The notes beneath the pieces were generated by a model. That model did no database searches. It was not told where the DNA came from and was given only the letters and a program-made list of their open reading frames with translations. 10,184 nucleotides of DNA from Auxenochlorella pyrenoidosa (lineage: Eukaryota > Chlorophyta > Trebouxiophyceae > Chlorellales > Chlorellaceae), in contig KQ482027.1 in assembly GCA_001430745.1 (NCBI GenBank), positions 429,207 through 439,390 of the forward strand. Reading direction: 5' to 3'. The translations under genes were made by a program, and so were the position numbers. Of the stretch, positions 142 through 10,184 are shown piece by piece. The stretch's first letter is position 1. Each line of letters starts with the position of its first letter.

Positions 142-3100
142 TGCGCCGGCTGCTGGGCGTTTGCCGGGGTGGCCGCCATCGAGTCCAAGATCCTGATCGA
201 CAGCGGCGCCAACGCCAGCGCGCCGCCGCCGCTCGACCTTTCAGAACAGCAGCTGCTCGACTGCGCCGATGCCGATGCCGGCTTTGACAGCCGGGGCTGC
301 CAGGGTGGCTACCTCTTTGACCCCTTCATCTACGCCTCCAGGCAAGGCGCCGGCTGGATGGGCAGGGCGGAGAGCAGGCGGGGGGCGCAGGGTTGGTGGG
401 CTCGGGACCTGGCAGTGCTGGCCTGACTTGCCTTGCCCTGCTGCCCGCATGCACCTCCATCTCCCGCTCAACCGCGCTTTGTGCGACCTGCATGCCGAGG
501 CTCTGACTGCCGCACACACACACACACAAACACACGCACAGGCACACGCACAGAACACGCACACGCACGCGCACACGCAAGCACGCTCGCACTCACACAC
601 ACTGTCACCTGCCTCACCTGCTCCAGGGGGCTGGGCTTCCTGACCACCGAGCTTCTATACCCCTTCAAGGGCCAGTCGGGGGCCTGCGACGCCTCGCGGC
701 TGCAGACCATCGACGGCGCCTCCAAGTTTGAGCTGGCAGAGGGAGCTTACGAGATGGTGCGGCCCTGGTCGGCGGCAGGACTGAGAGAGGTGGGAGCCAC
801 GCCCTCGCCGCCGGTGCTGCTTAGCTGGCGGCGTGGGCAGGGCAACGGTGCAGCAGAGGGCAAGCAAGGCGCTGTTGGGCTGTGCCGGTGCTGAAAGCGG
901 GGTTTCGGTCTAGAACATGTGCAGTGGCTGGAAAGAGGCCCATGGCAGCACGAGACAGCCCTTGCTGACCCCAGCTCCTGCCCGTCCCTGCAGGCTGTGC
1001 TCATCTCGCCAGTTGTGGTGTCCATCAATGCGCCAGACCTGTTCCAGTTCTACTCGGGTGGGTGCGCTGGCCCCGCCTGCCCGCTGCCTGCCCTGTCGTG
1101 CATGTGGATTGCACCGGAACCTTAGCTCGGCTCTGTGCCATGCCACGCTCTGTCCTGTACTGCGCGGAAGCAGTGCAGCAACTGGCCAGCTCGTGCAACC
1201 ACCGATGGCGGCCCCCCCCCTGGAGCCCTGCAGGCGGCCTGTGGACTGCTGCTGAATGCGAGGTGCCCGACGGGCCGCCCGCCTTCAGCAGGGCACGCAT
1301 GAACCATGCTGTGCTCGTCGTGGGCTTCAACCTGACGGCCCAGCCGCCCTACTGGCGAGCCTGGGGGCGGGGCCTGGGGGTGGGCGGTGCAGCCTGCAGG
1401 CGCTGCTTGCAGGCGTGCAGCGTGCCGCTCGCTGAGGCGGCGCAGCAGCCCGGCTATGGCGGGGGTCGCACGCTGCCAGGGTGGCACCATGCCAAGGGCG
1501 CCGCGAACAAACGCCCTGCCCGCCTGCCAACCTGCCTGCCTGCCCCCAGGATCTTCAAGAACTCCTGGGGCGGCGGCGACTCCTGGGGGGACGACGGCTA
1601 TGGCATGATAGAGATGACTGGGCTGGACGGCAAGCCCAGCTGGGGAGGTGCGCCGCCAGACGACACAAGCCCCGGCGCCAAGTGCACCGTGCCCATGCTC
1701 AAGGACAAGACCCGCGCTCACACTCCCACGCTCTCGCATTCCAACTTCCCACGTTTCGTTGTTGTGCAATTCGTGCAGCGTGCAGCATGTACTTCTGGAT
1801 GCTGCGCCCCGCAGAGGTGCTGCCGCGGCAGGGCGACGCCGTCCCGGCTGCGCCAAAGACACGTGAGAGCCGGGGCACAGGGCAGCGCTGGGGGCACGCA
1901 CTAGACAGTAGCACGGCCATTGCAGCGCGCCTCGCCGCTGCCTTGGCCTGGGTTTGGGGGGCACACCCGCTGATGCCGGCTCTTGTGTCTGTGCTCTCCC
2001 CCGCCCTGCAGCCACGCTGCGCTTGATGCCTGGCAACTCGCAGAGGCAGTACGGCAGGTTGGAGATACTGGTCAATGGCACCTGGGTGAGCGGGAGGGCA
2101 GCAGCCGCAGCTGCCTGGAAGCTACCTGCCAAAAATCCTGCTGCATGCATTTTTTCAACTGCCGTGGCGGCACAACCTGCCGGCCCACCTCTGGGTGCTC
2201 GCCGCTGCTGCCGAAATCCCAGCTGCATACATTTCCTGACTGCCATGGAGGCGCCTCAACCTGCGGGGCCTCGCCGCTGCCTGCCGCTGCGTGCAGAGCA
2301 CCATCTGCAGCCGTGGCTTCGATGCCGTGGATGCAAGCGTCGCGTGTCGGCAGCTTGGGGTGGGTGGGCAAGATGTGCCATCCCTGCTTTGCAGCACATC
2401 GTTCAGATGGCGGGCTTGCGCCCTTGACATTCGGGCTGGCCAGGCCATGGGCTCCGTGTCTGGCGTCAGTGCAAATGCCGACTGGGCAACGTGCAATCTG
2501 ATGTGCGAGGGGATCCCCTCCTCATGCTCATGCTCCGCGACTGCATTTCTCTTGCAGCTGGGCACCTCTGGCAGGGCCCTGGCCGGCACCCCCTTTGGCC
2601 AGGGCACCGGCCTGCCCATCGCGCTCAACCAGGTGGAGTGCACCGGCGAGGAGCAGGCCCTGCAGCAGTGCGGCGCGCTGAGCGGCGCCGCCGGTGTGTC
2701 GGGGTGCACGCACGCAGAGGACACCTCCATCCAGTGCGGGGACGCGCTGCCAGAGGGTGAGCTTGACTGCAGAGGCAGCCGTGCAGAGGGCTTGTAAAGG
2801 CAGTGGCTGCTTGTGCAGTAGTTGGCCAACAGCAGGGATGTGTTGTCCACGGTGGGGAGGATGGGCGAAAACAGGGAGGCACAAGTTGGCTGGCCTGCTT
2901 GCCGACCACAGCTCTCACCAGGGCCGCCATGAAGGCCATGCAGCCCGCAGGTGCTGGGCTCAGCCGTGCGCACTGCATGCACGGCTCACCGCCGGCCCGC
3001 TCTTGCAGGCCCCTCCACACCCCACCCCCACCCGTTTGCACCCTCCCCTTCTGTCCCTCATGCCGCAGTCACTGTGCGGCTGGTCAGCCCCGATGGCAAT

Positions 3101-6100
3101 GCGCAGCAAGGCAGGCTGGAGGTGTTCCATGCCGGCACCTGGTGAGCTGTGAGGGCCAGGGCACAGCGGCTCGGGATCAGGGTGCCGCAGGCAAGGTTCC
3201 CGGGATCGTGCACCATTCCGGCCTGGCAAGCCCATTCGTCACGGCACAGCATGCTGTCCCGTACCCACACTGCTTGGAAGCTTCTCCCTGGCTCCCAGGG
3301 GCACAGTGTGCGACGACGGCATGACGGACGACGCCGCTGGCGTGGTGTGCAGCCAGCTGGGCCTGGGCGGCTCCGGGTCCACCATCAAGCACGCCCCCTT
3401 TGGCGAGGGCAACGGCACGATCTGGCTGAGCCGCGTGCGCTGCAGCGGCGATGAGTATCGCCTGGAGGACTGCCCCAACGCCGGCTGGGGCGCCGCCACT
3501 GGCTGTTCACACGCCGAGGATGTGGGCGTTTCGTGCCTGGGCAGCGTGGGCGCCGCCGACGTGGCGCCCGGCGTGGGTGAGCGCGCCCTCCGCCCCTGTG
3601 CATGGCAGGTTTGGCGGCGCGTGGCAAGTGGACCTGCCGACGTGGGTGCAGAGTGGTCGCACCGAAAAGTGCGCTGCCGGCCGTGCCAGGGATATGGTGT
3701 GCGAGGGCTGCCCATTCACGCCCGTTTACTGCCCGCGCTGCCGCAGTGACTGTGCGGCTGGTCGGCGGCTCCACCAAGCGCCAGGGCCGGCTGGAGGTGC
3801 TGCAGAAGGGCTTGTGGCGTGAGTGGGCACTTGGGGCGATAAGGAAACTGCTTGCTTACTTACCTTTCGGCACGTGGCATCACGACGAAGCCATCAGCAC
3901 TTGTCATCGCTTGCGAGAGTCTGTCGTTTCAGCATCAGGCTGTGCCAATGGACTAACACCCCCGGCGCTGCCCCTGCAGGCACGGTGTGTGACGACGGCG
4001 CTGACGGCGGGCTTGCAAGGTCGGCAGCAGCTCTCTCAGTGCCGCCTGAAGCCTGGCAGCTCAAGCCTGGCTGCACTTTGCCTGCCCATCCCGCCCTGAC
4101 GCAGCGTCGCTCTGCTTGCCTTGCCGCAATTGCATGCGCTCACCACCCAGCGCTACTGCATGCCCTTGATGTGCTGCAGGGTGGTGTGCAAGCAGCTGGG
4201 CCTGCCCCCCACGCGCACCCCAAACGTCACAGTGGGTGGCGCCTACTATGGCCAGGGCACCGGCGGCCTGCCCATCTACCTGCACTGCACCGGCAGTGAG
4301 GCCTCCTGGGAGCAGTGCAGCACCGGCGGCCTGGGCACGCGCTCCTGTGAGTGCCCGGTCTGCCCTGTGGGCAGGTACTTGCCTGGCTTCTTGGGTTTGC
4401 ACAGGGCCAAGCATGTGCCGGTACGAGGCATCTGCGCTGCAACCCGGCAGCCGTCGCATCGCAGCAGTTGACGCCAACCAGCAGCCACTGTTCAGGCAGT
4501 AGGTTGTGGCGTGTATCCAGAGCCCCTCCCCTGCTGGAACGCCCTTCATTGTTGTGCTGCAGGCTCGCATGCCGAGGATGTGGGCATCTCCTGCGGCGCA
4601 CCCCTCGACGGTGGGCTTGGCTGCTGTATGCTGTGCCCTGCCCCCGTTCCCACTACCTACCAATCCAATCCAGTCAATCACACGGCTGCTTGTGCGCCTG
4701 ATGCGCCCGCTTGCCTGCCTGCCTGCGCTGCCGGGGGTCCCCCTGCGCACGGCCACGCACCCGCGTTCATGGCCTGCCCTGCGTGCGATGCCCCTGCAGC
4801 GATGGTGAGGCTGGCTGGGGGGCCCAACTCGCGGTCGGGCCGGCTGGAGGTGCGGCGCAACGGGCGGAACAGCACCTGGGGAACCGTCTGCAGCAGGCAA
4901 GTGTCGCCCCAACGCTGTGCTCATCGTCATCATTTTGATCACTGTCCGCACCGATCTGGCCCCCGTGTCTGGCGTCCTGCACACAGCAGTCAGGGGTCGA
5001 CCTTCGCACCTGCCCTCTGCTGCGTAGCTAGCCGCTGCATCCAGCGGGTTGCCCTGCCTTGCCTTGCCCTTTGCAAGCGTGCTTGCCCGCCGTGCCGCGC
5101 CCTTTCCGACTGCCCTGCAATACCTGACCGCGGCTCTCAGCGATTTCAACCCTGTCTGCAGGGGCTTTGACCCGCTGGATGCGCGTGTGGTGTGTCGCAC
5201 GCTGGGCCTGGGATCCTTCGGCTCGGTGGCCGCTGCGGGCGCCTTTGGCGCCGGCACGGGGCGCATCTGGATGTCCGACGTGGCCTGCTCCGGATCAGAG
5301 GCCACACTGCTGGAGTGCGCCAGCCGCAGCCCCCTGGGCTGCACGCACGCTACGGACGTGGGCATCCGCTGCGGGGACGCGCCCCCGAATGTACGTGAGT
5401 GCGGGGGCTGGCAAGGTGCTTGGGAGCCCTGCGGATGCGCTGGACAAGCCGCACCCGCTTTGCTGTGGAGCTAGGTCCAAGATCTCCCCGCGCCCCCCCC
5501 CCCCCCCCTCCTTTTGTGTGCTAGGGCATGAGTGATGCCTTTGCTTAAGCCAGGGTTCTGCCCAAGCAGTAGCTGCTCTGCCAACGGAAAAGCTGTGAAA
5601 ATGGGGTGCCGGCCTCTGACCCTTTCGTGCTTGTAACCGTGCGCCCTGCCATGCCTGCAGCCACTCTGCGGCTGGTGGGCGGCCCGAACTCCACTAGCGG
5701 CCGGGTGGAGCTGCTGAAGGATGGTGTATGGTGAGCATGCCTAAGCTGCTTCCCTGGGCCTGGAATGCCCCGCCCGTCGTCTTGTTGGCTAATGTCAGCT
5801 CATCACGCTTCGACTGACAGCCTGCAATCTTGAGAGGTCCTGCCCGAACATTTTGAGGCCTGCCGGCCTGCTTGCCCTGCCGGCCTGCTTGCCCTCACCT
5901 CGACTGTCTTCTCACCTCCCTTCCTTCCTGTTTGCTGTTCGCTGCCGTGAAGGGGCACCATCTGCGACTCGGACACAGCCGACCAGACAGCCACCGTTGT
6001 GTGCCGCCAGCTGGGCCTGGGGTCGGCGGGGGCTCTCAAGACCAACGCCTTCTTTGGGGAGGGCACAGGGCCCATCTATCTGGCGGGGGTGCGCGCCTTG

Positions 6101-8970
6101 ATCCTTTCTTTGGGGAGGGCACATGGCCCATCTACCAGCAGGCCCAGCTGGCCGGTGTGCGCACCCGGCTGGCCTGACAGCTGGGGCTGCACAGCTAGCC
6201 TGTTTTGAGCAGGGACCCGCAACAAGAACGGGCTTGGCTTTGAGGGCGAATCACGAATGGGCATGCGTATGCTCCCCGCTGCCCCGCCCGTGACTGCAGT
6301 TGAACTGCAGCGGCGCTGAGACCCGTGTCCAGGATTGCCCCACCTACTACCCGGACAGTTTCTCCTGTGAGCAGATGCCGTGTCAGCACGCTTTTAGCAC
6401 AGCAGATTCGCTGGTAGTGGTTGCAGCCGGCAAGCCGGGCGACAAGCAAGCATGCTGGCTGGCCAGGCAGCATGCACGTGGCACACTGGCGTTGCAAGCC
6501 CCCGCCCCCACCGCCTGCAGGCCGGCATTACGAGGACATCGGCGTCGTCTGCTCCGGTGAGGCATGGGCAAAGGCCACGCTTTTTGCGATGCGGCGGCAA
6601 GCCTGTTGCGCCGCAGCGGCTCAGCCGACACCCTGCTGAGCGCTGCTCACTGATACCCTCCCCCAATGCTTCCCTGCAGACCCGCCCGCCTCCATGTACA
6701 CGGTGCGGGCCTCCCTGATGGCAGCCAGCAGCGCTGCTGCCTCCACGCTCGCGGTCCGTGCCTGCCGCAGGGCGCTCCGCTTGCGGTGCAGGCCTCGGCC
6801 CATGCTTGCTTGCCCGCTGCCTGCCTGGCCTGCCCACCTGCAGTTTGCTGGCAAGTGGGGGGGCAAGGGCACCGGCGACGGCTTGTTCAAGAGCATTCTC
6901 GGCATAACCGCCACCCGCGGGGGCGACATCCTCGTGTGCGGTGAGGCCCGGCCCGCGTGCTGCGCTGCATCGAGCCGGGCAGCGCTGCCACCGCACCATG
7001 TGCCTGTGCAACAGTTTTCAGACTGGGGCAACGCCTGCCCGCTTGCTTTGCTGCAATCCCTCCCCGCAGATGAGGGCGGGGACCGCATCCAGCGCTTCAC
7101 GTCCACCGGCACCTTTGTTTCAGCCTTTGGGGAAGGTCGGATGCTCGAACACGTGGCAATGGCTGCCAAGCCTGCACGGCAGCCGTGGCAACAAAGGAAA
7201 TCTGCCATGCCTATCCTGCGGCATGGATTAGCGTCGCTCCCCTCGCCAGGCCAGCGCATGAAGCGTGTCCCACTGTGGTGCGCTCCTTTTGCAGGCCGGC
7301 TTTCTGGTCCGGTTGCGATAGCTCAGATGGATACATCGACTGATGTCCTGGTTGCTAACGAATTGACGCAGCGCATTGAGAGGTACGCCAGCGCCAAGGC
7401 GGCCCTCGCCACCCCTGCGGGTGGCGGTCATTCATGGCATGCTCTTTCCCTTGTCATGCCAGATCAGCACTTGAAAGAGGCGCTCTACAGCGGTGGGCGA
7501 TTGCATGGGCCGCTCCGCCCTGCCCACGACGGCCGACGAAGCCCTTGCTGCCACGCCCTTCCCGCCCACACCTTGTCCGTGTCACAAGTTCCATTGCGGT
7601 TAGACACACTTTAAACCCAAACCAGCATTACTATCCTGCCGTGCTGCAGGTTTACCCTGCAAGGCCAATATGTTGGCGGGTTTAAAGCAGGCTCTGCTAC
7701 GACCAGCATCAACAACAAACTGGGGGTACTTGTACGCAGTAACACCGTCTACGTGAGCTCAAGCTAACAATCCGCGGGATTGAGGAGGGAGTGCAGTCGC
7801 GCTTGCCCCCCTGCCTGGCCCGACCCGCGCATTTGCTTGCATGCGAGCCACCTTGCCTGCCTGCGCAGCCTGCTGCACTCCAGCTCACCTGCCTGCCTGG
7901 CAGGCAGCATGCCATGAAGAGCTGCTCAGCAGGCTCTTCGCCCTCCAACCCCCTCCCTGTGTTCCAGCTTGCCGACTCTATTGCACATCGCGTCATAGCC
8001 TACGGCATTGACGGCACCTTCATACGGCAGTGGGGCATGCAGGGCACTCTGGAGGGCCAGCTCTTCAGGCCATGCGGCCTTGGCCTTGACAGCAGCAGGC
8101 AGACGCTGTACGTGAGTACCCAGTGTGGCCGGCGCTGCTGCCCTGCCCTTGGCGTTGCAGCGCTCCCTGTGTGCACTGCCCTGCACAGCTGGAACCTGCA
8201 ACGCCCTGTCCTACATCTAGCCTGCTGCGCCGCCGGCCCTCCCAAAAGGTTGCCGCATGCCTGCTTGGCTGCTGGCCCTCACCACAGCTTGCCATCATTC
8301 ATTTTGTGATGTTCTGTTACTCCGTTAATTGCAGGTCCTGGAGTGCGGCACGGACCGTGTCTCCCGCTTTGCCGCCGCCGATGGACGCTTCCTGGGCTCC
8401 TTTGGCCGCCAGCAGCTGTTCGCGAGCGGCGACATGTGCGTAGCGGAGGACGGCCGCGTCATCGTGGCGAACAAGACAAACGCGGTGGTGTTTGCAGTCA
8501 ACGGCACGTACTTGGGCAGCTTCCCTGTGTTCCAGCCGGGCGATCCCGCCGTGAACGAGTTGACAGCCATTGCCTGCAGCGTCGACGGCGGGGGCGCAGT
8601 GTTTGTGGCAGACTTCGTCCTCAACACCGTGCGCAAGTTCCTGCAGTCGGCGCAGCCCGCAGCGGCGGCAGCCAAGCAGGCCGCTGCTTCTACGGCTGTG
8701 GCGCTCGCAGCGGCCGGCACTACGGGCACAACACTGCAGGGGCGTGAGGAGCCGGCGGCGGCGGCGGGGGCAGCGGTGACAGAGGCAGCTTTGGCAGGCT
8801 TTCCAGCCGACTCCAGCATGGCACGCATGCAAGCCAGGGTGGCGGCCTTTGCTGCTCACATGTCAGCGCTGCCGCTGTCCCCAGCACAGCTGGAGCGCCT
8901 TGCGGGGATGGCTGACAGCCACGGTGCCCTTCTCGATACTTTTCAAGAGGAACTGCAAGTGCAGAGCTGA
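142..8970 (+). CDS. C1A cysteine peptidase - five SRCR domains - NHL propeller fusion protein (5' partial, 28 exons)
   Basis: Exons threaded by homology and phase: 142-341, 627-789, 994-1057, 1234-1354, 1550-1647, 1779-1862, 2012-2085, 2297-2359, 2558-2756, 3069-3141, 3299-3576, 3747-3818, 3980-4019, 4180-4346, 4563-4610, 4800-4896, 5162-5394, 5661-5730, 5953-6088, 6300-6366, 6521-6556, 6680-6753, 6844-6940, 7070-7135, 7295-7382, 7650-7752, 7968-8111, 8335-8970. Every junction keeps frame; the total is 3591 nt, 1196 residues plus stop. Domain order by residue of this partial protein: peptidase 1-243, SRCR1 244-355, SRCR2 356-472, SRCR3 473-581, SRCR4 582-691, SRCR5 692-794, linker 795-819, NHL repeats 820-1088, Ala-rich tail 1089-1196. 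Sequons (NAS, NLT, NGT, NVT, NST, NKT) occur throughout and the SRCR cysteines are complete, so I infer a secretory-pathway protein. Likely role (inference): proteolysis directed by ligand-binding modules. The weakest calls are the 1648 and 6754 donors and the AAG acceptor at 5952. A two-gene reading is unlikely: only 149 nt separate peptidase and SRCR exons, they are phase-compatible, and no stop/start pair lies between them. Confidence 0.85.
342..626 (+). other. GC-AG intron carrying a CA-rich microsatellite
   Basis: The exon ends AG and the intron begins GCAAGG, a good GC-type donor; the acceptor is CTCCAG at 621-626. Splicing joins [16 protein letters not shown], which restores the papain fold between the GC.GG motif and the Y-P-F loop. 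No GT donor gives this join. The intron carries the CA-rich tract at 511-602. Confidence 0.75.
511..602. repeat. CA/CG dinucleotide microsatellite (imperfect)
   Basis: About 90 bases of nearly unbroken alternation of C with A or G, mostly CA steps with CACG and CGCG interruptions and one AAA and one GAAC break. It lies wholly in the intron 342-626. Alternating purine-pyrimidine tracts of this sort can adopt Z-DNA, and their length varies between strains. The opposite strand reads as GT repeats and gives spurious Cys/Val/Arg reading frames. Confidence 0.9.
1355..1549 (+). other. GC-AG intron inside the peptidase active-site region
   Basis: The exon ends in the first two bases of a Trp codon (1353-1354), followed by GCGAGC. 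The acceptor CCCCAG ends at 1549, and G at 1550 completes TGG. The join gives P-Y-W-I-F-K-N-S-W-G, exactly the family pattern around the catalytic Asn. The nearest GT (1370s) puts the downstream exon out of frame. The donor is a poorer GC type (GCGAGC) than the one at 4897. Confidence 0.65.
2012..2756 (+). other. SRCR domain 1 (three exons)
   Basis: Exons 2012-2085, 2297-2359 and 2558-2756. The first reads [19 protein letters not shown] then VNGTW; the second [20 protein letters not shown]; the third has [16 protein letters not shown], then C-G-A-L and [11 protein letters not shown]. Six cysteines are present, the group A pattern, with 12 residues between the first two, as in all five SRCR copies here. 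Introns flanking the domain are phase 1. Internal introns fall right after the conserved Trp (phase 0) and after C-R-Q-L-G (phase 0). SRCR domains are extracellular disulfide-bonded protein- or ligand-binding modules; the ligand cannot be told. Confidence 0.88.
2127..2280. repeat. Imperfect tandem duplication inside an SRCR1 intron
   Basis: Copy A (2127-2208) and copy B (2209-2280) lie side by side. Both run TGCC, A-rich AATCC, GCTGCATRCATTT, ACTGCCRTGG, AACCTGC, and end CTCGCCGCTGC. Copy A is about 10 bases longer near its end. Many point differences suggest the duplication is not recent. It lies wholly in intron 2086-2296 and adds nothing to the coding sequence. Confidence 0.75.
2757..3068 (+). 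other. Intron between SRCR1 and SRCR2, 312 nt
   Basis: GTGAGC donor, TGCCGCAG acceptor, phase 1, one of the longest introns in the gene. No coding signal on either strand agrees with neighbouring domains. It holds a perfect inverted repeat at 2962-2986 and a C-rich pyrimidine stretch from about 3008 to the acceptor. Confidence 0.75.
2962..2986. repeat. Small inverted repeat (8-bp arms, 9-nt loop)
   Basis: AGCCGTGC at 2962-2969 and its reverse complement GCACGGCT at 2979-2986 frame a 9-nt loop. It sits in the intron about 80 bases before the acceptor. It could fold in the pre-mRNA, but arms this short can arise by chance in GC-rich DNA. Confidence 0.5.
3069..3576 (+). other. SRCR domain 2 (two exons), the most canonical copy
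   Basis: Exons 3069-3141 and 3299-3576. It begins [10 protein letters not shown], then [54 protein letters not shown] and [11 protein letters not shown]. Six cysteines, group A spacing. The intron interrupts the Trp codon itself (TG|G, phase 2), and the domain is flanked by phase-1 introns. Having two exons for a six-cysteine SRCR matches the usual animal group A organisation. A sequon (NGT) sits in the GEGNGTIW loop. Confidence 0.92.
3747..4610 (+). other. SRCR domain 3 (four exons)
   Basis: Exons 3747-3818, 3980-4019, 4180-4346 and 4563-4610. Reads [61 protein letters not shown], then [11 protein letters not shown]. Six cysteines; the 12-residue spacing between the first two is restored only by splicing the 40-nt exon 3980-4019, which supports it. 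Arg replaces the usual Gly after Trp. The last intron splits the fifth Cys codon (T|GC), the same place as in SRCR5, evidence of common descent of those two copies. The donor at 4020 (GTCGGC) is weak. Confidence 0.85.
4800..5394 (+). other. SRCR domain 4 (two exons, GC-AG intron between)
   Basis: Exons 4800-4896 and 5162-5394. Reads [69 protein letters not shown] and [10 protein letters not shown]. Six cysteines. Unlike copies 1, 2, 3 and 5 it has no intron at the conserved Trp; its intron comes five codons later, after C-S-R. The domain's flanking introns are phase 1. An NST sequon lies just before the conserved Trp. Confidence 0.9.
4897..5161 (+). other. GC-AG intron with consensus donor
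   Basis: The exon ends CAG and the intron begins GCAAGT, the ideal GC donor; the acceptor is CTGCAG at 5156-5161. It joins C-S-R to G-F-D-P and restores the 12-residue cysteine spacing seen in the four other SRCR copies. A GT four bases downstream (4901) would give the wrong phase and a stop in the next exon. Confidence 0.8.
5493..5508. repeat. C16 homopolymer
   Basis: Sixteen uninterrupted C residues inside the intron 5395-5660, preceded by CGCG. A run this long is prone to length variation and sequencing error, but lies outside the coding sequence so it should not affect the protein. Confidence 0.9.
5861..5894. repeat. Perfect 17-bp tandem repeat (two copies)
   Basis: TGCCGGCCTGCTTGCCC occurs twice back to back, 5861-5877 and 5878-5894, in the intron 5731-5952. 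It resembles the CCTGC/CTTGCC filler of other introns here and probably arose by slippage. Confidence 0.9.
6049..6165 (+). repeat. Tandem duplication of an SRCR5 exon end into the following intron
   Basis: Copy 1 (about 6049-6097) is the 3' end of exon 5953-6088 plus its donor. Copy 2 (about 6105-6165) follows at a 56-bp offset; 6050-6078 and 6106-6134 match at 28 of 29 bases, with G/T at the one mismatch. Copy 2 has an extra CAGCAGGCCCAG, then a similar ending with its own GT (CCGGTGTGCG). Since 56 is not a multiple of 3, reading through would lose the SRCR frame; splicing at 6089 removes copy 2. The downstream exon at 6300 joins correctly to copy 1. Confidence 0.8.
6680..6753 (+). other. 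Linker exon between SRCR5 and the NHL propeller
   Basis: This exon enters in phase 1 and leaves in phase 0, encoding [11 protein letters not shown] followed by an Ala/Ser-rich stretch of about 14 residues. The donor GTCCGT at 6754 is weak, so the 3' limit may differ. The Ala/Ser part is too polar for a membrane span. I read it as a spacer. Confidence 0.6.
6844..8643 (+). other. Six NHL-type repeats, probable six-bladed beta-propeller
   Basis: Exons 6844-6940, 7070-7135, 7295-7382, 7650-7752, 7968-8111 and the start of 8335-8970. The entry strand [13 protein letters not shown] is the classic NHL opening. Blades: (1) [20 protein letters not shown] and [16 protein letters not shown]; (2) [20 protein letters not shown] and [15 protein letters not shown]; (3) [17 protein letters not shown] and [17 protein letters not shown]; (4) [16 protein letters not shown] and [18 protein letters not shown]; (5) [18 protein letters not shown] and [13 protein letters not shown]; (6) [19 protein letters not shown] and NTVRKFL. 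Each has the hydrophobic G-x-A/V, VxVAD/N and R-x-F.x.G.F pattern. NHL propellers bind protein, RNA or small ligands, or in some families are enzymes; nothing here decides which, but linkage to SRCR argues for an extracellular partner. Confidence 0.88.
7889..7907. repeat. Inverted repeat (9-bp arms, 1-nt centre)
   Basis: CTGCCTGCC at 7889-7897 and GGCAGGCAG at 7899-7907 form a near palindrome in intron 7753-7967. It is built from the CCTGC filler common in these introns. No function is visible. Confidence 0.7.
8644..8970 (+). other. Ala-rich C-terminal tail and stop
   Basis: After the last NHL strand the same exon continues 108 residues to TGA at 8968-8970. The first half is Ala/Thr/Gly-rich ([20 protein letters not shown]) and low in complexity. 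The second half has mixed charged and hydrophobic residues ([39 protein letters not shown]) and looks amphipathic-helical. There is no ER-retention motif or hydrophobic anchor. I do not recognise the tail as a known domain. Confidence 0.8.
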
Positions 8971-9124: not shown

Positions 9125-9129
9125 TGTAA
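9125..9129 (+). terminator. TGTAA polyadenylation signal of the fusion gene
   Basis: TGTAA is the usual chlorophyte polyadenylation signal and cleavage follows it by roughly 10-20 bases. This is the first TGTAA after the stop, 155 bases downstream. A second one at 9172-9176 could be an alternative site. Confidence 0.65.
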
Positions 9130-9171: not shown

Positions 9172-9176
9172 TGTAA
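9172..9176 (+). terminator. Second TGTAA, possible alternative polyadenylation signal
   Basis: Lies 47 bases after the first TGTAA, inside ATGCATGTAAGC. It may be a back-up site for the same transcript. Confidence 0.4.
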
Positions 9177-9494: not shown

Positions 9495-10184
9495 TCACCA
9501 GCGGGAGCGCACAGAGTAGGTGGAGCATAGTTTATACGACTTGCAAGAGAGCGCCGCCAAGGATTGCTTGGCAGGACAGCGGCGCATGGGCTGCCACCCT
9601 GCTGGGCGCCATTCACAATCTGCGGCGGGGCGGTGGCCGACGAGGCGGCGGTCCCCTGGGCGGTGGCCGGCGGGGCGGCGGCTTGCTGGCTTTGCTAGGA
9701 GGCGGCGGCTTCCTGGGCGGAGAGGGGCGTGGTGGCGGCCGCGGAGGGGAGGGTCGCGGCGGGCGCGGAGACGGCAGGCGTGGCGGGGAGGGGTGCGGGG
9801 GTCGTGGGGTAGGCGGCTTGGGTGGCAGAGGGGGTGGCGGGCGGGGCGGAAAGGGTCGCTGAGGTGACGGCGAAGGCGGGCGGGGAGGGGAGGGCCTGGG
9901 CGACGATGGGGGGGACGGTGGCAGCGGCGGAGGGGGCCGCAACGGGGGCCGCGGCTTGGGCGGTTTGGGGGCGGGCCGGGAGGGAGGGGCGGTGCGGGGG
10001 GCCTTGGGGGCGCGGGAGGCAGGGCCCCAGGGTACACTCGGTCCATTGTCAGCTGTGCCAGGCTGTACACCGCCAGGCGGGAGGCAAGGTACGGCAGGTC
10101 GGCGCTGCCGTTGGCTTGCAGCCAGGCCAGGCAGGGCCGCACGTAGTCGGCGATGCCCTCGTGCCAGGAGTAGGCGATGTTCAT
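9495..10184 (-). CDS. Probable proline-rich protein, partial, frame uncertain after about 10035
   Basis: Read on the minus strand from the window edge, the frame opens with ATG at 10184-10182 (which may be internal) and gives MNIAYSWHEGIADYVRPC, then LAWLQANGSADLPYL and LASRLAVYSLAQLTMDRVYP. This is a normal mixed composition that I do not recognise. It runs straight into a proline-rich tract (ALPPAPPRPPAPPLPPGPPP). The same frame stays open to 9495, but below about 9945 it becomes Arg/His/Pro-rich. The frame one step over instead gives regular P-P-S-P-P / S-P-R-P units ending at TGA 9613-9615, typical of green algal hydroxyproline-rich wall proteins. The third frame is Ala/Thr/Pro-rich to a TAG near 9690. 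A small intron, an assembly error in this C-rich tract, or a real long frame could each explain it. No good GTGAG-type donor is visible. I infer an extracellular-matrix-type protein at low to moderate confidence. Confidence 0.4.
   Translation of the reverse strand: MNIAYSWHEGIADYVRPCLAWLQANGSADLPYLASRLAVYSLAQLTMDRVYPGALPPAPPRPPAPPLPPGPPPNRPSRGPRCGPLRRCHRPPHRRPGPPLPARLRRHLSDPFRPARHPLCHPSRLPHDPRTPPRHACRLRARRDPPLRGRHHAPLRPGSRRLLAKPASRRPAGHRPGDRRLVGHRPAADCEWRPAGWQPMRRCPAKQSLAALSCKSYKLCSTYSVRSRW
9605..10025 (+). repeat. G-rich low-complexity tract (plus strand), G-quadruplex-prone
   Basis: About 420 bases of the plus strand are dominated by GGCGG, GGGG and GGTGGC units with little T and A. Many sets of four nearby G-runs could fold into quadruplexes on the plus (template) strand. 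The complementary strand encodes the proline-rich tract. Such sequence is error-prone to assemble, which matters for the frame question. Confidence 0.75.

Follow-up and report, generated by a model that had tools for sequence, protein, structure and literature searches.

A single gene on the plus strand of an Auxenochlorella pyrenoidosa scaffold encodes a papain-type C1A peptidase domain, followed by five SRCR domains and a putative six-bladed NHL propeller. The gene lies at positions 142..8970 of the window, i.e. of the whole stretch of 10,184 nucleotides that was analyzed. All of its domain families are known; what is new is their order, and the protein does not amount to a novel type of system. 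The original prediction, which was made from the sequence alone, knew of no described family with this order. Among the open-licence papers listed, mostly as titles, no description of it was found, nor was a printed account of a green-algal protein that joins C1A to SRCR, or NHL to one of the two. However, two Micractinium 'hypothetical proteins' at NCBI already carry the order, one in whole and one in part.

Gene model and domain content

The source genome comprises 51.6 Mb in 65 contigs, and the window forms the last part of a scaffold of 439,390 bases (C38). Homology and splice signals guided a manual reconstruction of the splice chain. The rebuilt chain (142-8970, plus strand) contained 28 exons and 3591 nt, had no internal stop, and encoded 1196 codons plus stop. 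The independent rebuild thus arrived at the count of the original prediction, and both junctions that had been singled out there, 1862/2012 and 6556/6680, were recovered. The count itself was nevertheless revised at the end of exon 22 by comparison with the two Micractinium relatives. In this region, both relatives read LYKFAGKWG, whereas the original chain contains a stretch of 26 residues, and 17 residues of that chain, in the interval between SRCR5 and the propeller, are absent from both. A donor at 6702/6703 (ACG/GTGCGG) drops exactly the 17 extra residues and keeps phase 0. Because the relatives lack these residues, the donor was placed at 6702 and not at 6753, so that exon 22 most likely spans 6680..6702 (plus strand) and 1179 codons is most likely the better count.

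The donor is GC in three of the 27 introns, namely introns 1 (342..626), 4 (1355..1549) and 16 (4897..5161), all GC-AG and on the plus strand. The paralog counterparts of introns 1 and 4 start with GT, and at the point of intron 16 three residues are missing from the model of Micractinium sp. CCAP 211/92. The final exon ends with an Ala-rich C-terminal tail and a TGA stop codon (8641..8970, plus strand; stop at 8968-8970). On the minus strand, a Pro/Ala-rich open frame at 9495-10184 runs off the scaffold end; it yielded no Pfam match at E 1.

The single gene stood, but position 142 did not stand as its start: the first exon opens at papain Cys22. The window itself opens with a run of N, and the sequence preceding it is N throughout the 10,000 bases covered. 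The gene is therefore 5'-incomplete; its start codon, any signal peptide and propeptide, and the oxyanion Gln would lie outside the window.

Pfam analysis of the spliced protein yielded Peptidase_C1 (3e-34, residues 1-204), SRCR (7e-117, five stretches) and NHL (8e-5, one stretch). Profile and homology scores of such size are evidently not due to chance. The C1A domain, from Cys22 onward, occupies 142..1819 on the plus strand according to Pfam and an alignment with actinidin (2act); it is encoded by exons 142-341, 627-789, 994-1057, 1234-1354, 1550-1647 and the first part of 1779-1862. The profile score was 119 bits, compared with a cut-off of 20.7. The actinidin alignment placed the catalytic Cys, His and Asn at residues 4, 167 and 187 (codons 151-153, 1305-1307 and 1560-1562, plus strand), and all three are invariant in both relatives. 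In both relatives, the motif KDQGEC with its Gln directly precedes the first residue of the window. A profile search of the first 95 residues of the M. tetrahymenae protein, the annotated start of which may be wrong, gave no I29 family match, and inspection by eye revealed no clear signal-peptide-like start at the annotated N-terminus of either relative. The linker between the C1A domain and SRCR1 (1820..2013, plus strand) is spliced over a phase-1 intron (1863-2011) and is contiguous in both relatives; in the paralog, an intron of phase 1 lies a single alignment column off.

The five SRCR domains follow on the plus strand at 2014..2743, 2756..3539, 3576..4597, 4802..5375 and 5663..6555. Each contains six cysteines, as do both SRCR domains of the paralog, which agrees with SRCR group A. 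In group A, each domain is encoded by two or more exons, and in the splice chain all five domains are encoded by 2 to 4 exons. The introns bounding the SRCR units are in phase 1 in six of six cases, compared with 13 of 27 overall (hypergeometric p 0.006, for a pattern sought post hoc), and the pairwise identity among the five units is 41-52%. The SRCR units resemble modules delimited by introns of phase 1; together with the unit identity, this fits a growth of the array by duplication of such modules.

Cation site 2 of SALSA/DMBT1 consists of D1019, D1020 and E1086, and both aspartates are required for ligand binding, according to the available part of PMC7043408. The D-D-E triad is complete in two of the five domains (SRCR2 and SRCR3), partly kept as D-S-E in SRCR5, and not kept in SRCR1 and SRCR4; the same motif comparison found it complete in neither of the two SRCR domains of the paralog. 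The register of this comparison was taken from the motif and the numbering in the accessible text of PMC7043408, not from a printed SALSA alignment. The window protein contains ten N-glycosylation sequons, which would fit an extracellular protein without proving it.

An intron in phase 1 (6557..6679, plus strand), found in the splice chain and backed by both relatives, separates SRCR5 from the NHL part. The propeller was assigned to 6844..8640 (plus strand) from Pfam, a TRIM71 match and a blade alignment, with exons 6844-6940, 7070-7135, 7295-7382, 7650-7752, 7968-8111 and the first part of 8335-8970. A single NHL repeat exceeded the Pfam cut-off (8e-5). The region matched the solved NHL propeller of TRIM71 (8j72) with an E value of 4e-24 over query residues 5-265 of 276. 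Six blades that share a strand pattern could also be aligned, the blade limits being set by eye. The TRIM71 propeller has six blades, and the NHL part of the window protein would likewise comprise six blades that close a ring. An AlphaFold run on the Micractinium sp. CCAP 211/92 protein plus six other rows gave a mean pLDDT of 29 and a pTM of 0.23, and thus no usable 3D model.

Related Micractinium proteins

A search with the full protein scored 7968 candidates, of which 1189 passed, and the relatives were taken from the best 120 of these 1189. Among the matches listed, the closest relatives of the window protein were Micractinium proteins: ABPG75_008680 from Micractinium tetrahymenae (P0001, 950 aa) and ABPG77_005509 from Micractinium sp. 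CCAP 211/92 (P0002, 1125 aa), each annotated by NCBI as 'hypothetical protein'. This kinship suggests that the sequence stems from Micractinium or a close neighbor of that genus. BLASTP identity was 83% over 70% of the query for P0001 and 67% over 90% for P0002; in the alignment, the identities to the window protein were 82% and 71%, respectively. A separate query with the C1A part retrieved three of 5258 candidates at E 1e-3, the third of which was without SRCR by Pfam; this search covered proteins of about 660-2090 aa, so that short C1A-SRCR relatives would escape it.

Both relatives have the order C1A, five SRCR stretches and then NHL. The NHL part is only begun in P0001, and it is largely present in P0002, where it stays below the Pfam threshold. 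On the revised chain, 22 of 27 exon junctions were free of gaps in P0001 and 23 of 27 in P0002, counts that include junction 22, which had been fitted to these relatives. The gapped junctions were 23-27 in P0001, all of them in the NHL part, where the model ends early, and 11, 16, 24 and 26 in P0002. The C1A/SRCR1 and SRCR5/NHL junctions were gap-free and had conserved flanks in both proteins, which are predicted models and not transcripts. That one gene carries C1A, five SRCR domains and NHL, as originally predicted, is thus supported by two gene models that cross both module junctions.

The alternative that two or three neighboring genes were wrongly joined draws on the paralog described below, a C1A-SRCR gene that ends without NHL. 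It is opposed by the conserved crossing of both named junctions in the two other gene models, and also by the distribution of TGTAA, which we take to be the usual green-algal poly(A) signal. On the plus strand, this motif occurs only twice within the gene, both times in introns, and the next one lies past the final stop (9125..9129, followed by another at 9172). We regard a wrong join as extremely improbable.

Compared with the window gene, the two Micractinium models are shorter and odd in places, and they carry no function or family name. In P0002, translation in a shifted frame matched at SRCR2 with a score of 46, compared with a maximum of 38 for same-frame shuffles, and in the tail with a score of 140, compared with 80. 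In P0001, the best shifted-frame match in the tail was rightly placed, with a score of 41 compared with 55 for the shuffles. In P0001, moreover, the Trp next to the catalytic Cys is replaced by Arg, and one of the SRCR4 cysteines is missing; together with the early end of its NHL part, this may mean that constraint has loosened in M. tetrahymenae. These oddities would reflect either slips in the records or the decay of some copies.

A gene that is decaying within the genus and intact only in the window by chance would account for the two P0002 frame shifts, the early stop in the P0001 propeller and its Arg at the active site. However, the window copy is open across 28 exons, P0001 is 82% identical to it, the catalytic Cys, His and Asn are conserved in both relatives, and GC-donor introns or base-call slips may distort both models. 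Decay therefore appears very unlikely.

A shorter paralog and the genomic setting

A 5'-incomplete paralog of 15 exons and 449 aa lies on a second contig (C49:231815-236048, plus strand). It consists of C1A, the linker, two SRCR domains and a stop. From the C1A domain through the linker and SRCR1 to SRCR2, the paralog is colinear with the window protein, with an identity of 45% (212/468 columns). Introns 1, 2, 4, 9 and 10 of the window gene have paralog introns in the same column and phase. For introns 6 and 7, the paralog introns are 1-2 columns away in equal phase, and for intron 3 there is one three columns off in a different phase. Introns 5 and 8 have no counterpart, and intron 11 lies beyond the end of the paralog.

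The two genes have the C1A domain, the linker, the SRCR order and introns in common, but the paralog has two SRCR domains and is without NHL. Because it is colinear and shares introns, the C1A-SRCR fusion evidently predates the duplication that gave rise to the paralog. After this duplication, either one copy would have acquired the NHL part or the other would have lost it. No NHL part was found downstream of the paralog by tblastn over 15 kb from C49:232000, 2173 bases of which are N, while the NHL part of the window was found as a positive control. A genome-wide NHL family search had missed the window's own NHL exons, and the absence at C49 is based on the separate tblastn.

At both C1A-SRCR loci, a run of N precedes the assembled sequence, which opens within about 140 bases of the exon with the active-site Cys (positions 1-141 side in the window; up to 231768 in C49, with an adjoining CA repeat). 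These runs may be assembly gaps or withheld sequence. Methyltransferase-like open frames were noticed by eye 3' of the paralog, at about 4811-6190 of locus L024.

A six-frame search of the genome yielded at least 20 SRCR matches, on C38, C49, C35, C26, C6, C59 and C64, and at least 25 C1A matches, which are adjacent to SRCR on C38 and C49. The only further C1A match on a contig with SRCR is about 720 kb away from the latter, on C59. Around the other SRCR places, tblastn with the C1A part of the window found no match in seven stretches, some of which contain N. No subtilisin was detected beside SRCR in the six-frame search, which gives lower bounds, and the nearest was 285 kb off on C64. Gametolysin was matched at least once, on C23. 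The search for C-type lectins gave no matches in the genome, and none in its own controls, which makes it uninformative.

Other propellers that matched the window protein at E 1e-3 were confined to C53, with 37-40% identity over blade 1. There are three such NHL loci, near 266, 278 and 304 kb on the minus strand. A separate NHL-propeller gene lies upstream of the window on C38 (L027, about 389.9-392.2 kb), on the same strand and 5' of the N run, with an apparently signal-like start by eye. Unlike the C53 loci, it did not match the window protein at E 1e-3.

Possible functions of the protein

SRCR domains are best known from animal immunity. Animal SRCR serine proteases such as neurotrypsin, hepsin and complement factor I also unite a protease and SRCR on one chain. 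However, their protease is S1 and not C1A, and they have no NHL propeller; the likeness lies only in how they work. An S1 trypsin-like domain was absent among the seven Pfam families matched by the window protein from Cys22 on. The propellers of TRIM71, TRIM2, TRIM3, Brat and Thin belong to regulatory proteins of the cytosol with RNA or protein as ligands; the window propeller resembles this group with E values of 2e-27 to Thin and 4e-24 to TRIM71.

The premise that SRCR domains occur in green algae agrees with published work on Chlamydomonas, for which the available texts report over 20 SRCR proteins (PMC6704257) and over 30 genes with SRCR and/or C-type lectin domains (PMC8226300). The partners named in the accessible portion of PMC6704257 are lectin, hydroxyproline-rich and TRP-channel parts, with neither C1A nor NHL among them. 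PKD2-like Chlamydomonas proteins with SRCR are also described, the available part of the source naming no protease (PMC11015965).

The explanation that we favor, with a confidence about evenly balanced, is that the protein is a papain-family endopeptidase with targeting surfaces of its own, which would be extracellular and attached to a target rich in glycan or protein. The protein would enter the secretory path, SRCR2 and SRCR3 may bind anionic glycans or glycoproteins via their cation sites, and the NHL propeller may hold a protein partner. The enzyme would then cut proteins at the cell surface or wall, e.g. in wall remodeling or daughter-cell release. Against this stand the cation triads, which three of the five SRCR domains, and both of those in the paralog, lack or keep only in part. 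The P0001 start without an I29 match, the two relatives without a clear signal-like start, and the Arg and missing SRCR4 Cys of M. tetrahymenae also speak against it.

Wall remodeling is slightly favored over defense because SRCR and wall peptidases appear to be linked in Chlamydomonas: in the available text of PMC8895990, SRCR genes are grouped with wall metalloproteases and subtilisins, and 36 genes of this group are upregulated in the cht7 mutant. The lectin and hydroxyproline-rich parts of Chlamydomonas SRCR proteins point the same way. The suggested wall role is thus drawn from another algal class. In a defense or recognition protease, the SRCR array would bind bacteria, viruses or host cells and bring the protease to them. 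Animal SRCR domains bind microbes via the cation site that SRCR2 and SRCR3 retain (PMC7043408, accessible part), and a part in immunity or chemoreception has been proposed for the Chlamydomonas SRCR/lectin genes (PMC8226300, available text). However, the site is complete in just these two domains and in neither of the paralog's, and SRCR cation sites bind self matrix too. We consider a defense role possible, but rather doubtful.

The protein could also be a vacuolar, lysosome-like digestive protease, with SRCR and NHL binding cargo inside the cell. The closest solved C1A structures include SPE31, actinidin and cathepsins K and H, several of which are vacuolar or lysosomal. Nevertheless, the SRCR proteins known to us act at the cell surface or outside the cell, the sequence at hand shows no readable targeting signal, and we judge the vacuolar reading unlikely.

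Micractinium species are free-living or live inside ciliates, and M. tetrahymenae is a ciliate endosymbiont according to the available part of PMC12516953. A self-targeting immune-type protease of a unicellular green alga may be imagined. Its SRCR domains would recognize, in a cation-dependent manner, the surface of a microbe, a virus or a ciliate host, its NHL propeller would sense another cue, and its papain domain would cut. We regard this as quite unlikely; if true, a single chain would do what animals achieve with cascades of several SRCR proteins and proteases.

With this gene, a cysteine protease and a propeller are added to the reported partners of green-algal SRCR domains. The paralog pair provides a long and a short version of one protease that lend themselves to comparison. 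Under the favored explanation, a surface-targeted protease with binding arrays would be a candidate for wall remodeling, daughter-cell release or partner recognition in these algae.
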